From Trinickia mobilis (GTDB lineage Bacteria > Pseudomonadota > Gammaproteobacteria > Burkholderiales > Burkholderiaceae): DNA of 44,002 nucleotides. A program made the translations under genes and the position numbers. Under the pieces are notes generated by a model. That model worked only from the letters and a program-made list of their open reading frames with translations. It was not told the DNA's origin and did no database searches. The stretch lies in contig NZ_JAFLRF010000043.1 in NCBI RefSeq assembly GCF_017315705.1, positions 967 to 44,968 of the forward strand. Reading direction: 5' to 3'. Shown one piece after another: positions 5,384 to 31,005 of this stretch (the first letter of the stretch is position 1; each line of letters opens with the position of its first letter).

Positions 5384-5450
5384 GGCAATCGCTCGCAGTA
5401 AGAATGAATCGGCCGGTTTGCCCGCACTTTATCAAAGTCACGTAGGCAAT

Positions 5451-5585
5451 TGAACTGCCCCCCACGCTCACATTCGTTCGCTGCCCGCTCCCCCAATCCC
5501 CCAGGGGGACTTCCTGCGGGGCCGGGGACTTCCTGCGGGGCGCGAGGGGGCTGATGCTTTCCTTGGGGCGGCCCGGCGGAAGGCA
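5451..5585 (+). repeat. Interspersed repeat, family 1, copy A
   Basis: This copy starts TGAACTGCCCC, carries the CACGCTCAC and TTCGTTCGCTG boxes, and ends with the loop TTGGGGCGGCCCGGC (5563-5577). The loop is flanked by arms TGCTTTCC (5555-5562) and GGAAGGCA (5578-5585). They pair at seven positions plus one G-T. Its middle is expanded by a tandem 19-bp unit (5505-5523 and 5524-5542). Both flanking genes are on the other strand, and no ATG follows the right arm, so this copy cannot couple translation. Confidence 0.8.
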
Positions 5586-5611
5586 AGAAAAACGGCGCCG
5601 AAGCGCCGTTT
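5585..5611 (-). terminator. Rho-independent terminator of the porin gene
   Basis: A perfect 9-bp stem AAACGGCGC / GCGCCGTTT (5590-5611) has a CGAA loop on the plus strand, TTCG on the minus strand. On the minus strand it is followed by TTTTTCTT. It lies 25 bases after the porin stop codon. Confidence 0.85.
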
Positions 5612-14383: not shown

Positions 14384-15409
14384 ATGGCGACAACCATTCG
14401 CGACGTCGCACGGGCGGCGAGCGTATCGATCGGCACCGTATCGCGGGCGCTGAAAAACCAGCCGGGCTTGTCGGAGGCGACGCGCCTGCGCGTCGTCGAG
14501 GCCGCGCGGCGCCTGGGCTATGACCCGGCGCAATTGCGCCCGCGCATCCGGCGGCTGACCTTCCTGCTGCATCGCCAGCACAACAACGTCGCGGCAAGCC
14601 CGTTCTTTTCGCACGTGCTGCACGGCGTCGAGCACGCGTGCCGCGAGCGGGGCATCGTGCCGTCGCTGCTCACGGCAGGCCCGACCGACGACATCGTCGA
14701 CCAGTTGCGGTTGCATGCGCCCGATGCCATCGCGGTGGCGGGTTTCATCGAGCCCGAAACGCTCGCGGCGCTCGTCGCGCTGCAGCGCCCGCTCGTCCTG
14801 ATCGACCTGTGGGCGCCGAACCTGCGCTCCGTGAATCTCGACAACGCCGCGGGCGCCGCGCTCGCGATGAAGCACCTGTTCGAATTGAAGCGCAGGCGCG
14901 TCGCGTTCATCGGCGGGTCGCTCGCGCACTACAGCATCGCGCAGCGCGCACTCGGCTACCGCCGCGCGTTCTTCGAAGCCGGCCTGTTGTTCGACCCCTC
15001 GCTCGAAGTCACGATCGACGCCGGGCTCGATCCCGATGCCGGCGCCGCGCGCGCGATGCAGCGCATTCTCGACGCGCCCGGCCCCGCGCCCGATGCGCTC
15101 TTCGCCTACAACGACGCAGCGGCGCTCGCCGCGCTGCGGGTGTGCCTCGCGCGCGGCCTGCGCGTGCCGCACGACATCGCGATCGTCGGCTTCGACGACA
15201 TCCCTGCCGCCGCGCATGCCGTGCCGCCGCTCACCACGATCGCCGTCGACAAGGAAACGCTCGGCGCACGCGGCGTCGAGCTGCTGCTCGAGGAAACGCC
15301 GGCCCAGCTCGAAGTGCGGCTGCCCGTGCATCTCGTCCCGCGCGCCAGCACCGCCGCCCCGCTCGACACGTTCAGTACCGCCAGCACCCTCTTGGGAATC
15401 ACGCCATGA
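14384..15409 (+). CDS. LacI/GalR-family transcriptional repressor
   Basis: A 341-residue LacI-family regulator. The N-terminal helix-turn-helix (TIRDVARAASVSIGTVSRAL, residues 4-23) and hinge helix (to about 58) are intact. A periplasmic-binding-protein-like sugar-sensing domain covers about 60-330, with GFDDIPAA near 268. It is the first gene of an operon; its stop overlaps the next start as ATGA at 15406. The context suggests it senses a hexose or hexose phosphate and represses its own operon through the symmetric elements just upstream. Confidence 0.92.
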   Translation: MATTIRDVARAASVSIGTVSRALKNQPGLSEATRLRVVEAARRLGYDPAQLRPRIRRLTFLLHRQHNNVAASPFFSHVLHGVEHACRERGIVPSLLTAGPTDDIVDQLRLHAPDAIAVAGFIEPETLAALVALQRPLVLIDLWAPNLRSVNLDNAAGAALAMKHLFELKRRRVAFIGGSLAHYSIAQRALGYRRAFFEAGLLFDPSLEVTIDAGLDPDAGAARAMQRILDAPGPAPDALFAYNDAAALAALRVCLARGLRVPHDIAIVGFDDIPAAAHAVPPLTTIAVDKETLGARGVELLLEETPAQLEVRLPVHLVPRASTAAPLDTFSTASTLLGITP

Positions 15410-16866
15410 CGAAGCTGCCTAACCAGTCCAAATCGCAAGCCCGCGCCGTTCTCGCCGCCGTGCATACGAACGAGGCCGTGCCGCCCATCGACGACTTCCG
15501 CGACCGCGCGTTCCTGCTCTCGCACGTCGCGGGCACCTTGCGCTTCTACGCGCCGGCGGTATTCGATCCGTCCGGCGGCTTCTTCCATTTCTTCAAGGAC
15601 GACGGCTCGATCTACGACCGCACGACGCGCCACCTCGTCAGCAGCTGCCGCTTCGTCTTCAACTACGCGATGGCGTACCGCCATTTCGGCGACGCGCAGC
15701 ACCTCGACTACGCGCGCCACGGCCTCGAGTTCCTGCGCGACGCGCACTGGGACGCCGACCACCAAGGCTACGACTGGGAAATCGAATGGCGCGACGGCAA
15801 GAAGCGCACGCTCGACGGCACGCGCCACTGCTACGGCCTCGCGTTCGTGCTGCTTGCCGCCTCGCATGCCGTGATGGCGGGCATCGAGGAGGCGCGGCCG
15901 CTGGTCGCCCAAACGTTCGAACTGATGGAGCACCGGTTCTGGGACCGCGCCGCCGGCCTCTACGCCGACGAAGCGACGCCCGACTGGCACGTGTCCGGCT
16001 ACCGCGGCCAGAACGCGAACATGCACACGACCGAGGCGCTTCTCGCCGCGTACGAAGCGACGGGCCATCTCGTCTATCTCGATCGCGCGGAACGCGTCGC
16101 GACGAACATCACGATGCGCCAGGCGCAGCTCTCGCACGGTCTCGTCTGGGAGCACTTCCACGCGGACTGGTCGGTCGACTGGCACTACAACGAAGAGGAC
16201 AGCTCGAACATTTTCCGCCCGTGGGGCTTTCAGCCCGGGCACCAGACGGAATGGGCGAAGCTGCTCCTGATCCTCGAGCGCCACCGCGCGCTGCCGTGGC
16301 TCCTGCCGCGCGCCATCGAACTGTTCGACGCCGCGCTCACCCACGCCTGGGACGACGATCACGGCGGCCTCTTCTACGGCTTCGGCCCGGACGGCATGGT
16401 GTGCGATCACGACAAGTATTTCTGGGTGCAGGCCGAGACCTTGGCCGCCGCCGCGCTGCTCGGAGAGCGCACCGGCAGCGAGCGCTTCTGGGACTGGTAC
16501 GAGGAGATCTGGCGCTATAGCTGGGCGCATTTCGTCGACCATCGCTACGGCGCCTGGTATCGCATCCTCACGTGCGACAACCGCAAGTACAGCGACGAAA
16601 AGAGCCCCGCCGGCAAGACCGACTATCACACGATGGGCGCGTGCTACGAAGCGCTGAACGCGCTGTCGCCGCTCGTGCGGGGCGCAGCGAATTCGGGGGG
16701 CGTCGCGGCGGACGTCACCGCTGCCGCCGCGCTCGAACGCGCCGCAGAATCGTCCAAACACGCGGCCGAGCACGCCACCGCACAGGCGGCGAAACACGAG
16801 ACTAAGCACGCCCCCAAGCGCGCGCCGAAACCCAACAGCCACAGCAAGCCGCGAGAAGCGTCATGA
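15406..16866 (+). CDS. AGE-superfamily sugar isomerase/epimerase
   Basis: A 486-residue (alpha/alpha)6-barrel enzyme of the N-acylglucosamine 2-epimerase / mannose isomerase (YihS) / cellobiose epimerase superfamily. Family stretches are FFHFFKDDGSIYDRTTRHL, TRHCYGLAF, NANMHTTEALLAAYE and HYNEEDSSNIFRPWGFQPG. These carry the active-site His and Arg residues. The catalytic part ends near residue 420. Residues from about 425 on form an unusual tail rich in Ala, His and Lys (ending APKPNSHSKPREAS), not part of the fold. The ATG overlaps the LacI stop. With a PfkB sugar kinase next, the most economical role is isomerising D-mannose to D-fructose, which the kinase then phosphorylates. An epimerase acting on another sugar is the alternative. 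Translation appears coupled to the following repeat ORFs. Confidence 0.88.
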   Translation: MTKLPNQSKSQARAVLAAVHTNEAVPPIDDFRDRAFLLSHVAGTLRFYAPAVFDPSGGFFHFFKDDGSIYDRTTRHLVSSCRFVFNYAMAYRHFGDAQHLDYARHGLEFLRDAHWDADHQGYDWEIEWRDGKKRTLDGTRHCYGLAFVLLAASHAVMAGIEEARPLVAQTFELMEHRFWDRAAGLYADEATPDWHVSGYRGQNANMHTTEALLAAYEATGHLVYLDRAERVATNITMRQAQLSHGLVWEHFHADWSVDWHYNEEDSSNIFRPWGFQPGHQTEWAKLLLILERHRALPWLLPRAIELFDAALTHAWDDDHGGLFYGFGPDGMVCDHDKYFWVQAETLAAAALLGERTGSERFWDWYEEIWRYSWAHFVDHRYGAWYRILTCDNRKYSDEKSPAGKTDYHTMGACYEALNALSPLVRGAANSGGVAADVTAAAALERAAESSKHAAEHATAQAAKHETKHAPKRAPKPNSHSKPREAS

Positions 16867-16949
16867 ACTGCCCCCACGCTCACGTTCGTTCGCTGCCCCC
16901 CGAGGGGGCGGTTGCCTCCCTTGGGGCGGCCCGGCGGGAGGCAACATGA
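16863..16949 (+). repeat. Interspersed repeat, family 1, copy C (28-codon coupler ORF)
   Basis: The unit begins with ATGA overlapping the AGE stop codon and stays open for 28 codons (MNCPHAHVRSLPPEGAVASL...). It stops at TGA 16947-16949, which overlaps the ATG of the next copy. A first hairpin pairs GCCCCC with GGGGGC. A second has perfect 10-bp arms GTTGCCTCCC (16911-16920) and GGGAGGCAAC (16936-16945) around the loop TTGGGGCGGCCCGGC. The right arm is also the Shine-Dalgarno of the next ATG. Confidence 0.85.
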
Positions 16950-17026
16950 ACTGCCCCCACGCTCACGTTCGTTCGCTGCCCCCCGAGGGGGCGAATGCCT
17001 TCCTTGGGGGACGGGAGGCATCATGA
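16946..17026 (+). repeat. Interspersed repeat, family 1, copy D (26-codon coupler ORF)
   Basis: This copy lies in tandem after copy C. It opens with ATG 16946 and encodes 26 codons (MNCPHAHVRSLPPEGANAFL...). It ends at TGA 17024-17026, overlapping the kinase start ATG 17023. The second hairpin has arms ATGCCTTCC (16995-17003) and GGGAGGCAT (17013-17021), eight pairs plus one G-T, around a shortened loop TTGGGGGAC. GGGAGG at 17013-17018 serves the kinase gene at four-base spacing. Confidence 0.85.
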
Positions 17027-17934
17027 CCGCCACGCCCGATTTCCCGCTCTTCGTCTCCGCCGGGGACATCCTGACCGACCTCGTGCGCACCGGCGATTCG
17101 CACTGGCTGTCGCGCCCGGGCGGCGCGGGCTGGAACGTCGCGCGCGCGGTCGCGCGGCTCGGCATTCCGACGGCGAGCGCCGGCTCGCTCGGCACCGACT
17201 ACTTCTCCGACGAACTCTGGAACGCGAGCGTCGCCGCCGGTCTGGACATGCGCTTCCTGCAGCGCGTCAACCGTCCCCCGCTGTTGGCGATCGTCCACGA
17301 GACACATCCGCCGACTTACTTCTTCATGGGCGAAAACGGCGCGGATCTCGCGTTCGACCCCGAGCTGCTGCCGCAAGGCTGGATGAAAGCGGCGCAGTGG
17401 GTGCATTTCGGCTGCATCAGCCTCGTGCGCCAGCCGCTCGGCGCCACGCTCGCGACGCTCGCTGTCGAGCTGCGCGCGCACGGCGTCAAGATCAGCTTCG
17501 ATCCGAACTACCGCAACCTGATGGAAACGGGCTACCGCCCGACGCTCGAAACGATGGCCGCGCTCGCCGACCTCATCAAAGTCTCCGATGAAGACTTGCG
17601 CCTCATCTTCAAGACCGACGAGGCCGCAGCGCTCGCCGAACTGCGCGCGATGAATCCGCAAGCGCTGGTGCTCGTGACGCGCGGCTCGGACATGGCGACG
17701 CTTTTCGCCGGCGGCGAAACGTTCGAAGCGAAGCCGCCGCGCGTCGAAGTCGCCGATACGGTGGGCGCGGGCGACGCGTCGATCGGCGGTTTCCTCTTCA
17801 GCCTGATGCAATCGCCGCAGCGCAGCTACGCCGAGCACCTGGCGTTCGCGCTGGCCGCCGGCGCGGCGGCGTGCCGCCATTCGGGCGCCCATTCCCCGAC
17901 GCTCGACGAGGTGGTCTCGCTCCTCACGGATTAA
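17023..17934 (+). CDS. PfkB-family sugar kinase (probable fructokinase)
   Basis: A 303-residue ribokinase/PfkB-fold kinase. The first family signature is GGAGWNVARAVARLG (residues 33-47). The second, DTVGAGDASIGGFLF near 246, carries the catalytic Asp in GAGD. The start at 17023 (MTATPDFPLF) is fixed by GGGAGG four bases upstream and by alignment of the signature to the N-terminus. An upstream in-frame ATG (16912) lies inside the repeat. It is the last gene of the LacI-AGE-kinase operon and probably phosphorylates fructose made by the AGE enzyme. Phosphorylation of another ketose or deoxysugar acid is possible. Confidence 0.9.
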   Translation: MTATPDFPLFVSAGDILTDLVRTGDSHWLSRPGGAGWNVARAVARLGIPTASAGSLGTDYFSDELWNASVAAGLDMRFLQRVNRPPLLAIVHETHPPTYFFMGENGADLAFDPELLPQGWMKAAQWVHFGCISLVRQPLGATLATLAVELRAHGVKISFDPNYRNLMETGYRPTLETMAALADLIKVSDEDLRLIFKTDEAAALAELRAMNPQALVLVTRGSDMATLFAGGETFEAKPPRVEVADTVGAGDASIGGFLFSLMQSPQRSYAEHLAFALAAGAAACRHSGAHSPTLDEVVSLLTD

Positions 17935-28288: not shown

Positions 28289-28703
28289 TTCGTTTCTCCT
28301 TCTTTTAAGAATGATCGGCGCCATCGCGCAAGGGGATTCGGGGGCCGGCCATCGGGTTCGTCGGGTTGCTGCCCCGAAAGCGCTCGCTTCATGATAGGCC
28401 TCGTTCCCCCTGATATGAAGGAAGTGGAAACACGTACGGCACGCGCGAGCGCAGCGCTTCATGCTCGGCGAGCCTGCGGTTTTTTCGGAGCCTTCACCGT
28501 GCGCGATCCCACAGAGCGTCAGGAGCAAGTGCCTACTCTCGCGATTCGTCAGTTCTCCTCGCCGCGCCGCTGCCATGCCCGCGGCTCGCCCGGACCGGGC
28601 GCATGAACGACGGCGCGTTCCGTACTATCCTGTGATCAAGCCGGTTTTTTCGATGACAACGACAAGCGTCACTGTTCGCTGAAGCCGGCATGGGGAGGCT
28701 GTC
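28289..28703. promoter_or_regulatory. Divergent intergenic region between livJ and the dadA unit
   Basis: About 415 bases that must hold promoters for livJ (leftward) and the dadA unit (rightward). I cannot place -35/-10 boxes with confidence. Near the right end, GTTCGCTG (from about 28675) and GGGGAGGCTGTC before ATG 28704 look like a decayed end of a family-1 repeat. GGGGAGG (28692-28698) is a strong ribosome-binding site five bases before that ATG. Open frames in this stretch show no coding character. Confidence 0.45.
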
Positions 28704-28736
28704 ATGAACAACCCCCACGCTCACTATCGTTCGCTG

Positions 28737-28784
28737 TCGGCCGGAGTTAGCGCTTTAGCGCTTACTCCGGTCCCATGCAAAGCT
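28737..28784 (+). repeat. Palindromic repeat, family 2, copy 2 (nested in copy E)
   Basis: A palindrome CCGGAGTTAG-CGCT-TT-AGCG-CTTACTCCGG is followed by TCCCATGCAAAGCT, matching the icmF-leader element read on the minus strand. Two stem positions differ, T-A in the icmF copy and C-G here, so pairing is preserved. It is inserted precisely between the CGCTG box and the CCCCCC arm of the host repeat. Confidence 0.8.
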
Positions 28785-28808
28785 CCCCCCGAGGGGGCGG
28801 ATGCCGTC

Positions 28809-28880
28809 CACGGCCGGCTTTGCAAAGCCGGCCGGCTGCGCAGGCGCGGAGCGGTGCTCCGCGAATTCCCTGCTACGCCC
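28809..28880 (+). repeat. Second insert in copy E with two hairpins
   Basis: This 72-nt stretch is absent from the other copies. It contains a perfect 22-bp palindrome GGCCGGCTTTG / CAAAGCCGGCC (28812-28833) and a perfect 8-bp hairpin CGCGGAGC-GGT-GCTCCGCG (28845-28863). Confidence 0.75.
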
Positions 28881-28906
28881 CTTGGGGCGGCCCGGCGGGA
28901 GGCATC

Positions 28907-30151
28907 ATGAAGACGATCGTGATGGGCGGAGGAATCGTCGGAGTCACGTCCGCCTATTTCCTGGCGAAAGCGGGCGACGAAGTCACGGTCGTCGACCGGC
29001 GCGCGGGCGTCGCGCTCGAAACGAGCTTCGCCAATGCGGGCCTCGTCGCGCCCGGCCATTCGTATACCTGGGCGTCGCCGCGCGCGCCGATGATCATGCT
29101 CAAGTCGCTGTTCCAGGAGGGGCAGGCGCTGCGCCTGAAGCTCACGGCCGACTGGCACATGTGGGCCTGGTGCTGGCTCTTCCTGCAAAACTGCACGGAG
29201 GAGCGCTCGCGCCTCAACACGTCGCGCAAGGTGCGGCTGTGCCGCTATTCGCAAGCGCAATTGCAGGCGCTTACCGCCGCCGAACAGTTGGATTACGAAC
29301 GCATCAGCCGCGGTCTGCTTTATCTCTATCGCGACGAGGCCGCGTTCGCGAGCGGCATCGCGCACATGTCGATCCTGACCGAGAACGGCCTGCCGCTCGA
29401 AACTCTCACCCCACAGGACGCGATCACGAAGGAGCCCGCGCTCGCCGCCGCCCGCAACGAGCTGGCCGGCGCGATCTACTGCCCGACCGACGAAAGCGGG
29501 GACGCGCACCTCTTCACGAAGGCGCTCTACGAACGGTGCGTGGCGCTCGGCGTGACGTTCCAGTTCGACACCGAGATCCAGCGCGCGAGGGCGAGCGCCG
29601 AGCGCATCGAGCAGATCGAGACCTCGCGCGGCCCGGTCAAAGGCGACCGCTACGTGCTGGCGCTCGGGTCCTATTCACCGTTTCTCGGACGCAAGCTCGG
29701 CTACCGGATACCGGTGTATCCGGTGAAGGGCTACTCGGTCACGCTGCCCATCGAGAGCGGTCACACGCCGCCCGATATCGGCGGCGTCGACGAGAAGAAC
29801 CTCGTCGCCTGGGCGCGCTTCGGCAACCGTCTGCGCTTTACCGCGACGGCGGAATTCGCGGGCTACGACACGCGGCACAAGCCGGCCGATTTCACGCACA
29901 TGCTGCAGACCGCGCGCGGGCTCTTTCCGAACGGCGCGGACTACAGCCGCCCGTCGTACTGGGCGGGCTTGAGGCCGATGACGCCCGAGGGCACGCCGAT
30001 CATCGGCGCGACCCGGCACCGCAACCTCTTCATCAACACCGGCCACGGGCACATGGGCTGGACGATGTCGTGCGGCACCGCGCGCGTGCTCGCCGACATC
30101 ATGCAAGGCCGCACTCCGGAGCTGGACATCACGGGACTCACGCTTAAATGA
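28907..30151 (+). CDS. dadA: D-amino-acid dehydrogenase, small subunit (DadA type)
   Basis: A 414-residue FAD-dependent dehydrogenase that oxidises D-amino acids to 2-oxo acids, feeding electrons to the respiratory chain at the inner membrane. The FAD-binding dinucleotide fold is at the N-terminus (MKTIVMGGGIVGVTSAYFLA), followed by VVDRRAGVALETSFANAG. The C-terminal flavin-contact region reads NTGHGHMGWTMSCGTARV. Length and start fit DadA: GGGAGG at the end of the upstream repeat lies four bases before the ATG. Its stop overlaps the next start (ATGA at 30148). Unlike many dad operons there is no adjacent dadX alanine racemase or Lrp regulator. Instead a racemase-superfamily gene follows, suggesting a dedicated D-amino-acid degradation route. 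Confidence 0.92.
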   Translation: MKTIVMGGGIVGVTSAYFLAKAGDEVTVVDRRAGVALETSFANAGLVAPGHSYTWASPRAPMIMLKSLFQEGQALRLKLTADWHMWAWCWLFLQNCTEERSRLNTSRKVRLCRYSQAQLQALTAAEQLDYERISRGLLYLYRDEAAFASGIAHMSILTENGLPLETLTPQDAITKEPALAAARNELAGAIYCPTDESGDAHLFTKALYERCVALGVTFQFDTEIQRARASAERIEQIETSRGPVKGDRYVLALGSYSPFLGRKLGYRIPVYPVKGYSVTLPIESGHTPPDIGGVDEKNLVAWARFGNRLRFTATAEFAGYDTRHKPADFTHMLQTARGLFPNGADYSRPSYWAGLRPMTPEGTPIIGATRHRNLFINTGHGHMGWTMSCGTARVLADIMQGRTPELDITGLTLK

Positions 30152-30236
30152 AACTCCCCCCACGCTCACTTCGTTCGCTGCCCCCCAAGGGGGCTGGTCA
30201 GTACGCTTGGGGCGGCCCGGCGCGTACTGACAAGAA
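30148..30236 (+). repeat. Family-1 repeat, copy F, fused in frame to the next gene
   Basis: This copy starts ATGAAACTCCCCCCACGC, overlapping the dadA stop. The first hairpin is G-CCCCC / GGGGG-C (30180-30194). The second has perfect 10-bp arms GTCAGTACGC (30197-30206) and GCGTACTGAC (30222-30231) around the same loop TTGGGGCGGCCCGGC (30207-30221) as copies A and C. There is no stop and no Shine-Dalgarno in the right arm; the frame continues into the racemase-family gene. Confidence 0.85.
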
Positions 30237-31005
30237 TACCGCAGACGTTTCCGACGACTACCTGCGCCTGGCTTTCACGCTCGATGAAGGGACGGCGCGC
30301 CGCGCGGCGATCGGCCTGATCGTCCTCGCGACGGACAACACGATCGAGTACGAGTGGCGCAAGCTGCTCGCGCTCGACGGCGTCGCGCTCTATGAAAGCC
30401 GCGTCGCGAGCCCGGCGCAGATCACGCCCGAGACGCTCGTCGAGATGGAAACGCGCATCGGCCCCGGCACCGAAGTCATCCGCCCGGGGCAGCGGCTCGA
30501 CGTGGTGGCGTTCGGCTGCACGTCGGCGTCGATGGTGCTCGGCGAGGAAACGGTATTTGCGCGCATCCGCGAAGTGCGGCCCGGCGCGGCGTGCACGACG
30601 CCGATCACCGCGGCGCGCGCCGGGCTCGAAGCGCTCGGCACGCGCCGCATCGCGCTCCTCACGCCGTACCTGCGCCGGATCAACGACGCGATGCGCGACT
30701 ATCTCCAGGCGCGCGGCCTCGACGTCGTGCGGATGGGATCGTTCGAGCACAGCGACGACAACGAGGTCGCGCGAATCGATGCCGGGTCGATCCGGCGCGC
30801 GATCCTCGCGCTCGGCGAGCGCGCCGATGTCGAAGCGGTCTTCGTCTCATGCACGAGCCTGCGGCTCGCAGACACCGTCACCGGGATCGAGGCGGAACTC
30901 GGCAAGCCGGTGACGTCGAGCAATCACGCGATGGCCTGGCACGCGCTGCGGCTCGCGGGCGTCGCCGACGCGCTGCCGCAGTTCGGGCGCCTCTTCACCG
31001 TCTGA
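30148..31005 (+). CDS. Asp/Glu racemase superfamily enzyme (maleate isomerase / arylmalonate decarboxylase-like)
   Basis: A 285-residue protein of the Asp/Glu racemase fold. The two cysteines expected for two-base catalysis are present: Cys124 in FGCTSASMVLGEE and Cys235 in VSCTSLRLAD. This pattern is closest to maleate isomerases, arylmalonate decarboxylases and related enzymes. The conserved domain begins only near residue 50 (RRAAIGLIVLATDNT). The first 30 or so residues are encoded by an interspersed repeat, and no ATG, GTG or TTG lies in frame between 30148 and the domain, so the repeat appears to supply the start codon. The gene follows dadA with a 4-base ATGA overlap. It may racemise or otherwise activate a substrate for DadA; this is inference from context. 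Confidence 0.8.
   Translation: MKLPPRSLRSLPPKGAGQYAWGGPARTDKNTADVSDDYLRLAFTLDEGTARRAAIGLIVLATDNTIEYEWRKLLALDGVALYESRVASPAQITPETLVEMETRIGPGTEVIRPGQRLDVVAFGCTSASMVLGEETVFARIREVRPGAACTTPITAARAGLEALGTRRIALLTPYLRRINDAMRDYLQARGLDVVRMGSFEHSDDNEVARIDAGSIRRAILALGERADVEAVFVSCTSLRLADTVTGIEAELGKPVTSSNHAMAWHALRLAGVADALPQFGRLFTV

Follow-up and report, generated by a model that had tools for sequence, protein, structure and literature searches.

A short repeat that recurs many times in this genome is best read, with a probability of roughly 0.7, as a small non-autonomous mobile element that inserts at start codons, mostly those reading ATGA, and brings with it a leader for translational re-initiation. The reading covers the copies sorted below as subfamily A, together with the D variants, and subfamily B in part. 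On insertion, the upstream flank and the native ATG stay in front of the copy, and the right end of the copy supplies a second ATG that is the start of the gene. The old ATG then opens a leader ORF, 28 codons long in units of 83 nt, the TGA of which usually overlaps the ATG of the gene, or which runs into the gene in frame. The new GGAGG is predicted to pair with a CCTCC of the left arm, and a ribosome arriving from the native signal would translate the leader, melt the hairpin, terminate on ATGA and re-initiate. Leader translation followed by re-initiation could explain why insertions are tolerated before genes that, from inspection of their starts, we take to be panC-, nadB-, lysA-, hisC- and rseP-like. 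Tandem arrays would arise from the insertion of a new copy at the start of one already in place.

The core of the repeat occurs at 140 places in the genome at up to two mismatches, compared with nine for a reversed control, so its recurrence is not due to chance. The part of the genome that was read comprised 569,827 bases in 110 segments, namely the surroundings of the listed copies, the window (the whole stretch of 44,002 nucleotides analysed here) and, as background, eight stretches of 20 kb. These segments hold 128 core copies, a few of them possibly chance matches, in 116 arrays. Sorted by their right arm, 61 copies belong to subfamily A (GGAGGCATC followed by ATG), 29 to subfamily B (CGTACTGAC followed by ATG, with no Shine-Dalgarno sequence at the right end) and 19 to subfamily C (TTTTCTTGA); ten are D variants, which resemble A but carry an insert behind the core, and nine are unclassified. 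GAAAA/TTTTC arms are seen in copies of subfamily C, for example L106. A 48-nt palindromic insert lies forward in the A copies L005 and L018 and reversed in B copies such as C34 29123 and C64 37638; of the three frames in the A consensus, all but the leader frame contain a stop, and among the three B copies of the corresponding length two carry an open leader ending on ATGA.

Three genomes of the genus Trinickia contain 121, 58 and 24 copies of the core at up to one mismatch; the present genome is congeneric with G001, taken to be that of Trinickia terrae. The 22-mer of subfamily A, searched at up to one mismatch, was absent from 38 genomes of other genera. Of 120 genomes from the order Burkholderiales, 14 contain the 16-nt core, counting the present one, and it is high-copy in G000, G072, G106 and G141. 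By eye, the core copies of other families are mostly intergenic and often closely follow a stop codon, and now and then one sits at a start codon (L272 and L344), both statements being limited to the matches listed. G106, from another family of the order, carries a related repeat in tandem arrays with a period of 111 nt (L345, L348 and L351). Searches with sequence strings and with words found no paper on the repeat among the top matches listed for open-access papers.

According to the gene caller alone, the loci at which the right end of the repeat adjoins a called start number 40 of 57 in subfamily A, 12 of 26 in B and none of 17 in C, so that in this strict count 14 of the 26 B loci and all 17 C loci lie away from starts. 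The background, 204,002 bases with 182 called genes and 81% coding, contains 140 ATG starts and 1017 further non-genic ATGs at which no gene begins (140/1157); P is 3e-24 for A versus this background and 1e-7 for A versus C. At two further A loci the caller places the start of the gene at the left ATG, with the repeat in frame, giving 42/57, and reading by eye adds another eight (C32, C36 364764, C47 73429, C47 114516, C51, C57, C62 17886 and C69 240591). Among these eight, C47 114516, C51 and C57 have their gene start 15-33 nt downstream, and C69 240591 is an in-frame fusion. With two A loci left out for runs of N, caller and eye together place 50 of 55 at starts, or 47 if the three shifted starts are dropped; the five that lie away from starts are C13, C36 340566, C60, C62 6528 (in the window) and C91. 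Nine of the ten D loci are at starts by eye, one of them as a fusion. Measured from the core, a coding start lies within 45 nt in 45 of the 61 A copies, as against 5 of the 19 in C, and at 8-10 nt in 42 A copies and no C copy. The T. terrae genome gives a comparable picture by eye, 13 of 14 A-type copies among the matches listed being followed, at 9-12 nt from the core, by a coding start. Starts at the repeat read ATGA in 30 of 37 cases, compared with 57 of 140 ordinary ATG starts (P 1.3e-5). The site may be chosen by recognition of the start region, perhaps at the RNA level or as open DNA near the ribosome binding site. At one locus (L026, C51 7315) a near-duplicate of the first 33 nt of the gene lies behind the repeat and makes up an ORF of 11 codons, with ATGA once more at its end.

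Orthologs of 25 of the 53 gene starts were searched for in T. terrae and in a second congeneric genome (G002), and most of those found lack the repeat. The flank test kept 20 genes, with at least 80% identity and a sufficiently long flank, the empty sites coming from these two genomes, and compared gapped, end-anchored flank alignments with mismatched-gene controls. The flank upstream of the left ATG matches that upstream of the ortholog start above 95% of the controls in 17 of the 20 genes and above 99% in 15, the other three showing no match. The flank upstream of the right ATG matches in three of 20 genes at 95% and in one at 99%; one of the three is the rseP-like gene, for which both G001 and G002 have short B-like remnants. 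An ungapped comparison of 25-nt flanks gave 11 of 20 genes (P 0.41). Since it is the left flank and not the right that matches the flank of the empty site, the alignments indicate that copies are inserted at start codons, with the native signals staying ahead of the leader. Where empty sites can be compared, the native ATG is the left ATG, which now opens the leader ORF.

The AGE-kinase junction and the panC-like gene form near-perfect pairs of filled and empty sites, in keeping with the earlier proposal that the sequence is mobile. The empty panC-like site in G001 reads ...CACACAGCCGACT-ATGAAAGTC; here the G001 flank continues into ATGAACTAC..., after which come the unit, GGAGGCATC and ATGAAAGTC, and G002 is also filled. 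The kinase in G002 reads ...GCCACAGCAAGCCGCGAGAAGCATC-ATGACCGCC, with the same flank as here bar one difference and without both units. The dadA orthologs are empty, and their flanks match in part only. ATG (at most ATGA or ATGAA) stands at both borders of a copy and once in the empty site, as expected of either a target duplication or an ATG borne by the element.

Table 1. Features of the window at the AGE-kinase and dadA loci, with the other copies of the repeat.
Feature	Position	Strand	Remarks
Subfamily A copy	5450..5587	+	exception: away from gene start
AGE (N-acylglucosamine 2-epimerase) gene	15406..16866	+	start by inspection; TGA 16864-16866, within an ATGA that begins at 16863
Unit C, subfamily A	16863..16949	+	83 nt ATG to ATG; leader ORF 28 codons
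CCTCCC, left hairpin arm and anti-Shine-Dalgarno of unit C	16915..16920	+	arm pairs covary
GGGAGG Shine-Dalgarno, right end of unit C	16936..16941	+	
Unit D, degraded core	16946..17026	+	77 nt ATG to ATG; leader ORF 26 codons
GGGAGG Shine-Dalgarno, right end of unit D	17013..17018	+	
PfkB-family kinase, ATG 17023	17023..17934	+	orthologous junctions without repeat in L446 and L121
GGGGAGG Shine-Dalgarno ahead of dadA unit	28692..28698	+	
dadA unit, subfamily A with internal inserts	28704..28910	+	203 nt ATG to ATG; leader ORF 68 codons
DadA-like FAD oxidoreductase	28907..30151	+	orthologs in L442 and L443 begin without repeat
Subfamily B copy, on dadA stop (ATGA)	30148..30235	+	right border approximate

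Within the window (Table 1), the chain described in the earlier note, in which ATGA overlaps lead from the AGE stop through units C and D to the kinase start, agrees with both coordinates and translations. Unit C, from ATG 16863 to TGA 16947-16949, translates as MNCPHAHVRSLPPEGAVASLGAARREAT up to its stop, and unit D, from ATG 16946 to TGA 17024-17026, as MNCPHAHVRSLPPEGANAFLGGREAS. The right end described there, GGGAGG, four nucleotides and ATGA, is present in units C and D and in the dadA unit alike. The start-to-start distances of the three units (83, 77 and 203 nt) all equal 2 modulo 3, which the 4-nt ATGA overlap requires. The two tandem units are both open, as had been stated, but the core of unit D is degraded and the unit is 6 nt shorter than unit C, with the frame kept. 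The gene products belong to the Pfam families GlcNAc 2-epimerase (AGE), PfkB (kinase) and DAO (dadA product). The notion that the repeat bridges a gap between AGE and kinase is weakened by the relatives: in G002 (L446) and in T. terrae (L121) the kinase junction is empty and is a plain ATGA overlap, so the repeat created the very gap that it was said to bridge. Before dadA, the reported third unit does have an open frame, of 68 codons, and its ATGA into dadA, but it is preceded by a Shine-Dalgarno sequence and not by an upstream stop. The B copy on the dadA stop is in frame with an ORF of the arylmalonate-decarboxylase (Amdase) family (30148-31005), which thereby has about 31 extra N-terminal residues from the repeat and no further ATG, GTG or TTG before codon 100. 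A terminator-like inverted repeat is seen by eye directly 3' of the A copy at 5450-5587. No Rfam match reached the gathering score in the window.

The genome-wide count proposed earlier finds that ATGA borders and frame-open lengths recur. A loose pattern yielded 218 candidate left ends, of which 124 without a resolved next start were excluded; some of the remaining 94 are probably not the repeat. In 68 of these 94 resolved units the leader stop lies beside the next start (-6 to +16 nt), 17 are fused in frame and nine are neither. This stop/start architecture, together with the anatomy of the unit, suggests termination and re-initiation. That frame-open lengths exceed chance holds in part: when 83 nt is set aside, 18 of 35 distinct lengths equal 2 modulo 3 (P 0.02), and 18 of 37 do so when pooled with T. 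terrae (P 0.04), but T. terrae alone gives 2 of 5. Frame retention is thus modestly significant and is not replicated in T. terrae alone. Among distinct lengths whose next start is ATGA, a subset chosen post hoc, 14 of 20 keep the frame (P 0.0009). Left ends that lack a recognisable core number 22: eight of them end on ATGA (41, 41, 50, 62, 62, 62, 110 and 116 nt), one ends 10 nt into the gene and six are open in frame; the remaining seven have no left start or no gene, or are broken (L427 and L429). In fused ORFs the next ATG, GTG or TTG comes at codon 100 (window, 30148), 82 (L412), 81 (C69 240591, with ACG in place of the ATG of the gene itself), 50 (C66 31305) and 37 (L395). A short-chain-dehydrogenase-like (SDR) ORF at L399 opens with the left ATG of the repeat (MNSPHAHYRSLESKHAVVTGG...), its next NTG being a TTG at codon 34. 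The test for nonsense substitutions has no power and gives no signal: 0.8 were expected and two observed in 24 units of 83 nt, and 0.45 expected and none observed in 13 units of 131 nt.

The arms around the core covary in the 61 A copies. Of the three outer pairs, one is G-C in 51 copies, A-T in three, T-A in two and unpaired in five; another is A-T in 40, T-A in ten, G-C in two, C-G in two and unpaired in seven; the third is T-A in 52, C-G in five, A-T in one, T-G in one and unpaired in two. The downstream Shine-Dalgarno sequence is predicted to be hidden, as had been supposed, with a median unpaired probability of 0.026 in 38 copies compared with 0.337 at Shine-Dalgarno matches in 74 ordinary genes (P 2e-11). 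Ahead of the left ATG, a Shine-Dalgarno core of at least 4 is present in 26 of 35 first units and in 97 of 181 ordinary starts (P 0.03). Similar hairpins persist in subfamilies B and C with no Shine-Dalgarno sequence in the arm, from which we infer that the hairpin serves mobility first; hiding the Shine-Dalgarno sequence is unlikely to have been its original purpose.

Insertion at start codons could be real and translation could nevertheless begin directly at the strong GGAGG of the element, with the leader and the ATGA overlap as by-products of a fixed length and of a target preference for ATGA. This is rather unlikely, though several observations fit it: the base length of 83 already gives the overlap, so that most copies simply inherit it, the preference for ATGA could be target specificity, the nonsense-substitution test shows no signal, and frame retention is absent in T. 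terrae alone. It sits poorly with the predicted occlusion of the GGAGG, with subfamily B, which adjoins starts at 12 of 26 loci although it lacks a Shine-Dalgarno sequence there, with distinct lengths and core-less remnants that keep the frame above expectation, and with fused genes, some of which have the left ATG only. The earlier note had instead seen the repeat as recruited to be a linker that carries ribosomes between cistrons across a gap. The left ATG does overlap an upstream stop in 13 of 62 A/D loci, compared with nine of 124 ordinary same-strand neighbours, but it does not in the other 49, and the AGE-kinase overlap is native in relatives, the gap being made by the repeat. Recruitment as a linker is therefore very improbable, and the linking of genes is secondary.

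There is equally little to recommend an ordinary repeat of the REP/BIME type moved by a RAYT transposase, with placement at starts left over after harmful insertions had been purged. High-copy hairpin repeats, tandem arrays and one Y1_Tnp gene in the genome are what such a repeat would lead one to expect, and Y1_Tnp genes also occur in G002 (one of them strong), G072 and G106. On the other side, the GTAG tetranucleotide of REP/BIME repeats is absent from both strands of the 83-nt consensus, and no Y1_Tnp with HxH was found in the genome, its single Y1_Tnp protein (L201 1126-1833) reading MPGAVQLL at the expected position; the 3.3-kb locus of this gene holds neither the repeat core nor the left block. 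Weak Y1_Tnp hits extend to other genera of the family, including genomes without the A 22-mer, G141 has 57 core copies and no Y1_Tnp, and purging alone would have spared many of the non-genic ATGs, which far outnumber the starts. Slimmer still is the chance that the repeat is a domesticated regulatory leader, an attenuator controlling a regulon. A leader ORF with an occluded Shine-Dalgarno sequence does resemble translational attenuators, but by inspection the target genes have no visible common theme, and the insertions differ between congeneric species.

If the preferred reading, a mobile repeat that enters at start codons and is passed by re-initiation, is true, a mobile element can occupy a gene's most sensitive region by setting up translation initiation anew around its own sequence, a single step can give rise to leader peptides and N-terminal extensions, and many natural pairs of filled and empty sites are at hand for measuring translational coupling. 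On this reading the repeat might also be the source of short predicted peptides such as MNxPHAHxRSLPPEG... More tentatively, at slightly under even odds, it may represent a class of mobile repeats that targets the translation start site with a full stop-start re-initiation cassette, enters the 5' ends of essential genes almost free of cost, stacks in tandem and leaves leaders or N-terminal extensions behind.

Among known systems, integron att sites come closest in working: ORF-11/ORF-17 of attI1 and short ORFs in attC involve ribosome passage and re-initiation by translational coupling (PMC8876359), and there too a short ORF adjoins, or lies within, a mobile site that forms a hairpin. Unlike attC, the 83-nt consensus has no GTTRRRY or RYYYAAC boxes, and unlike integrons the repeat has no cassette gene and stands at native start codons in many chromosomal places. 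MITEs, described in PMC10969869 as non-autonomous, mobile and sometimes giving fusion ORFs, differ in their terminal inverted repeats, which the consensus lacks (7 of 20 positions match). The likeness to REP/BIME repeats, high-copy intergenic hairpins in tandem arrays associated with RAYT (PMC2817692), is in the hairpins, their number and the arrays, and the difference is in the placement at start codons. A RAYT was also considered as the mover and rejected, the only Y1_Tnp of the genome having no HxH and the consensus no GTAG. Closest in kind are the Rickettsia palindromic elements, of which nearly half of the copies are in-frame inserts within genes (PMC10969869): each is a small mobile palindrome with a conserved ORF able to stay in the frame of the host gene. 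The present repeat falls under the definition of neither integron att sites nor these elements. By the description of the latter it differs in that the start codon is its main site and that most resolved units end in a stop at or beside the start of the gene; its 17 fusions among the 94 are N-terminal in-frame extensions, whereas the in-frame inserts of the Rickettsia elements lie within coding sequence.
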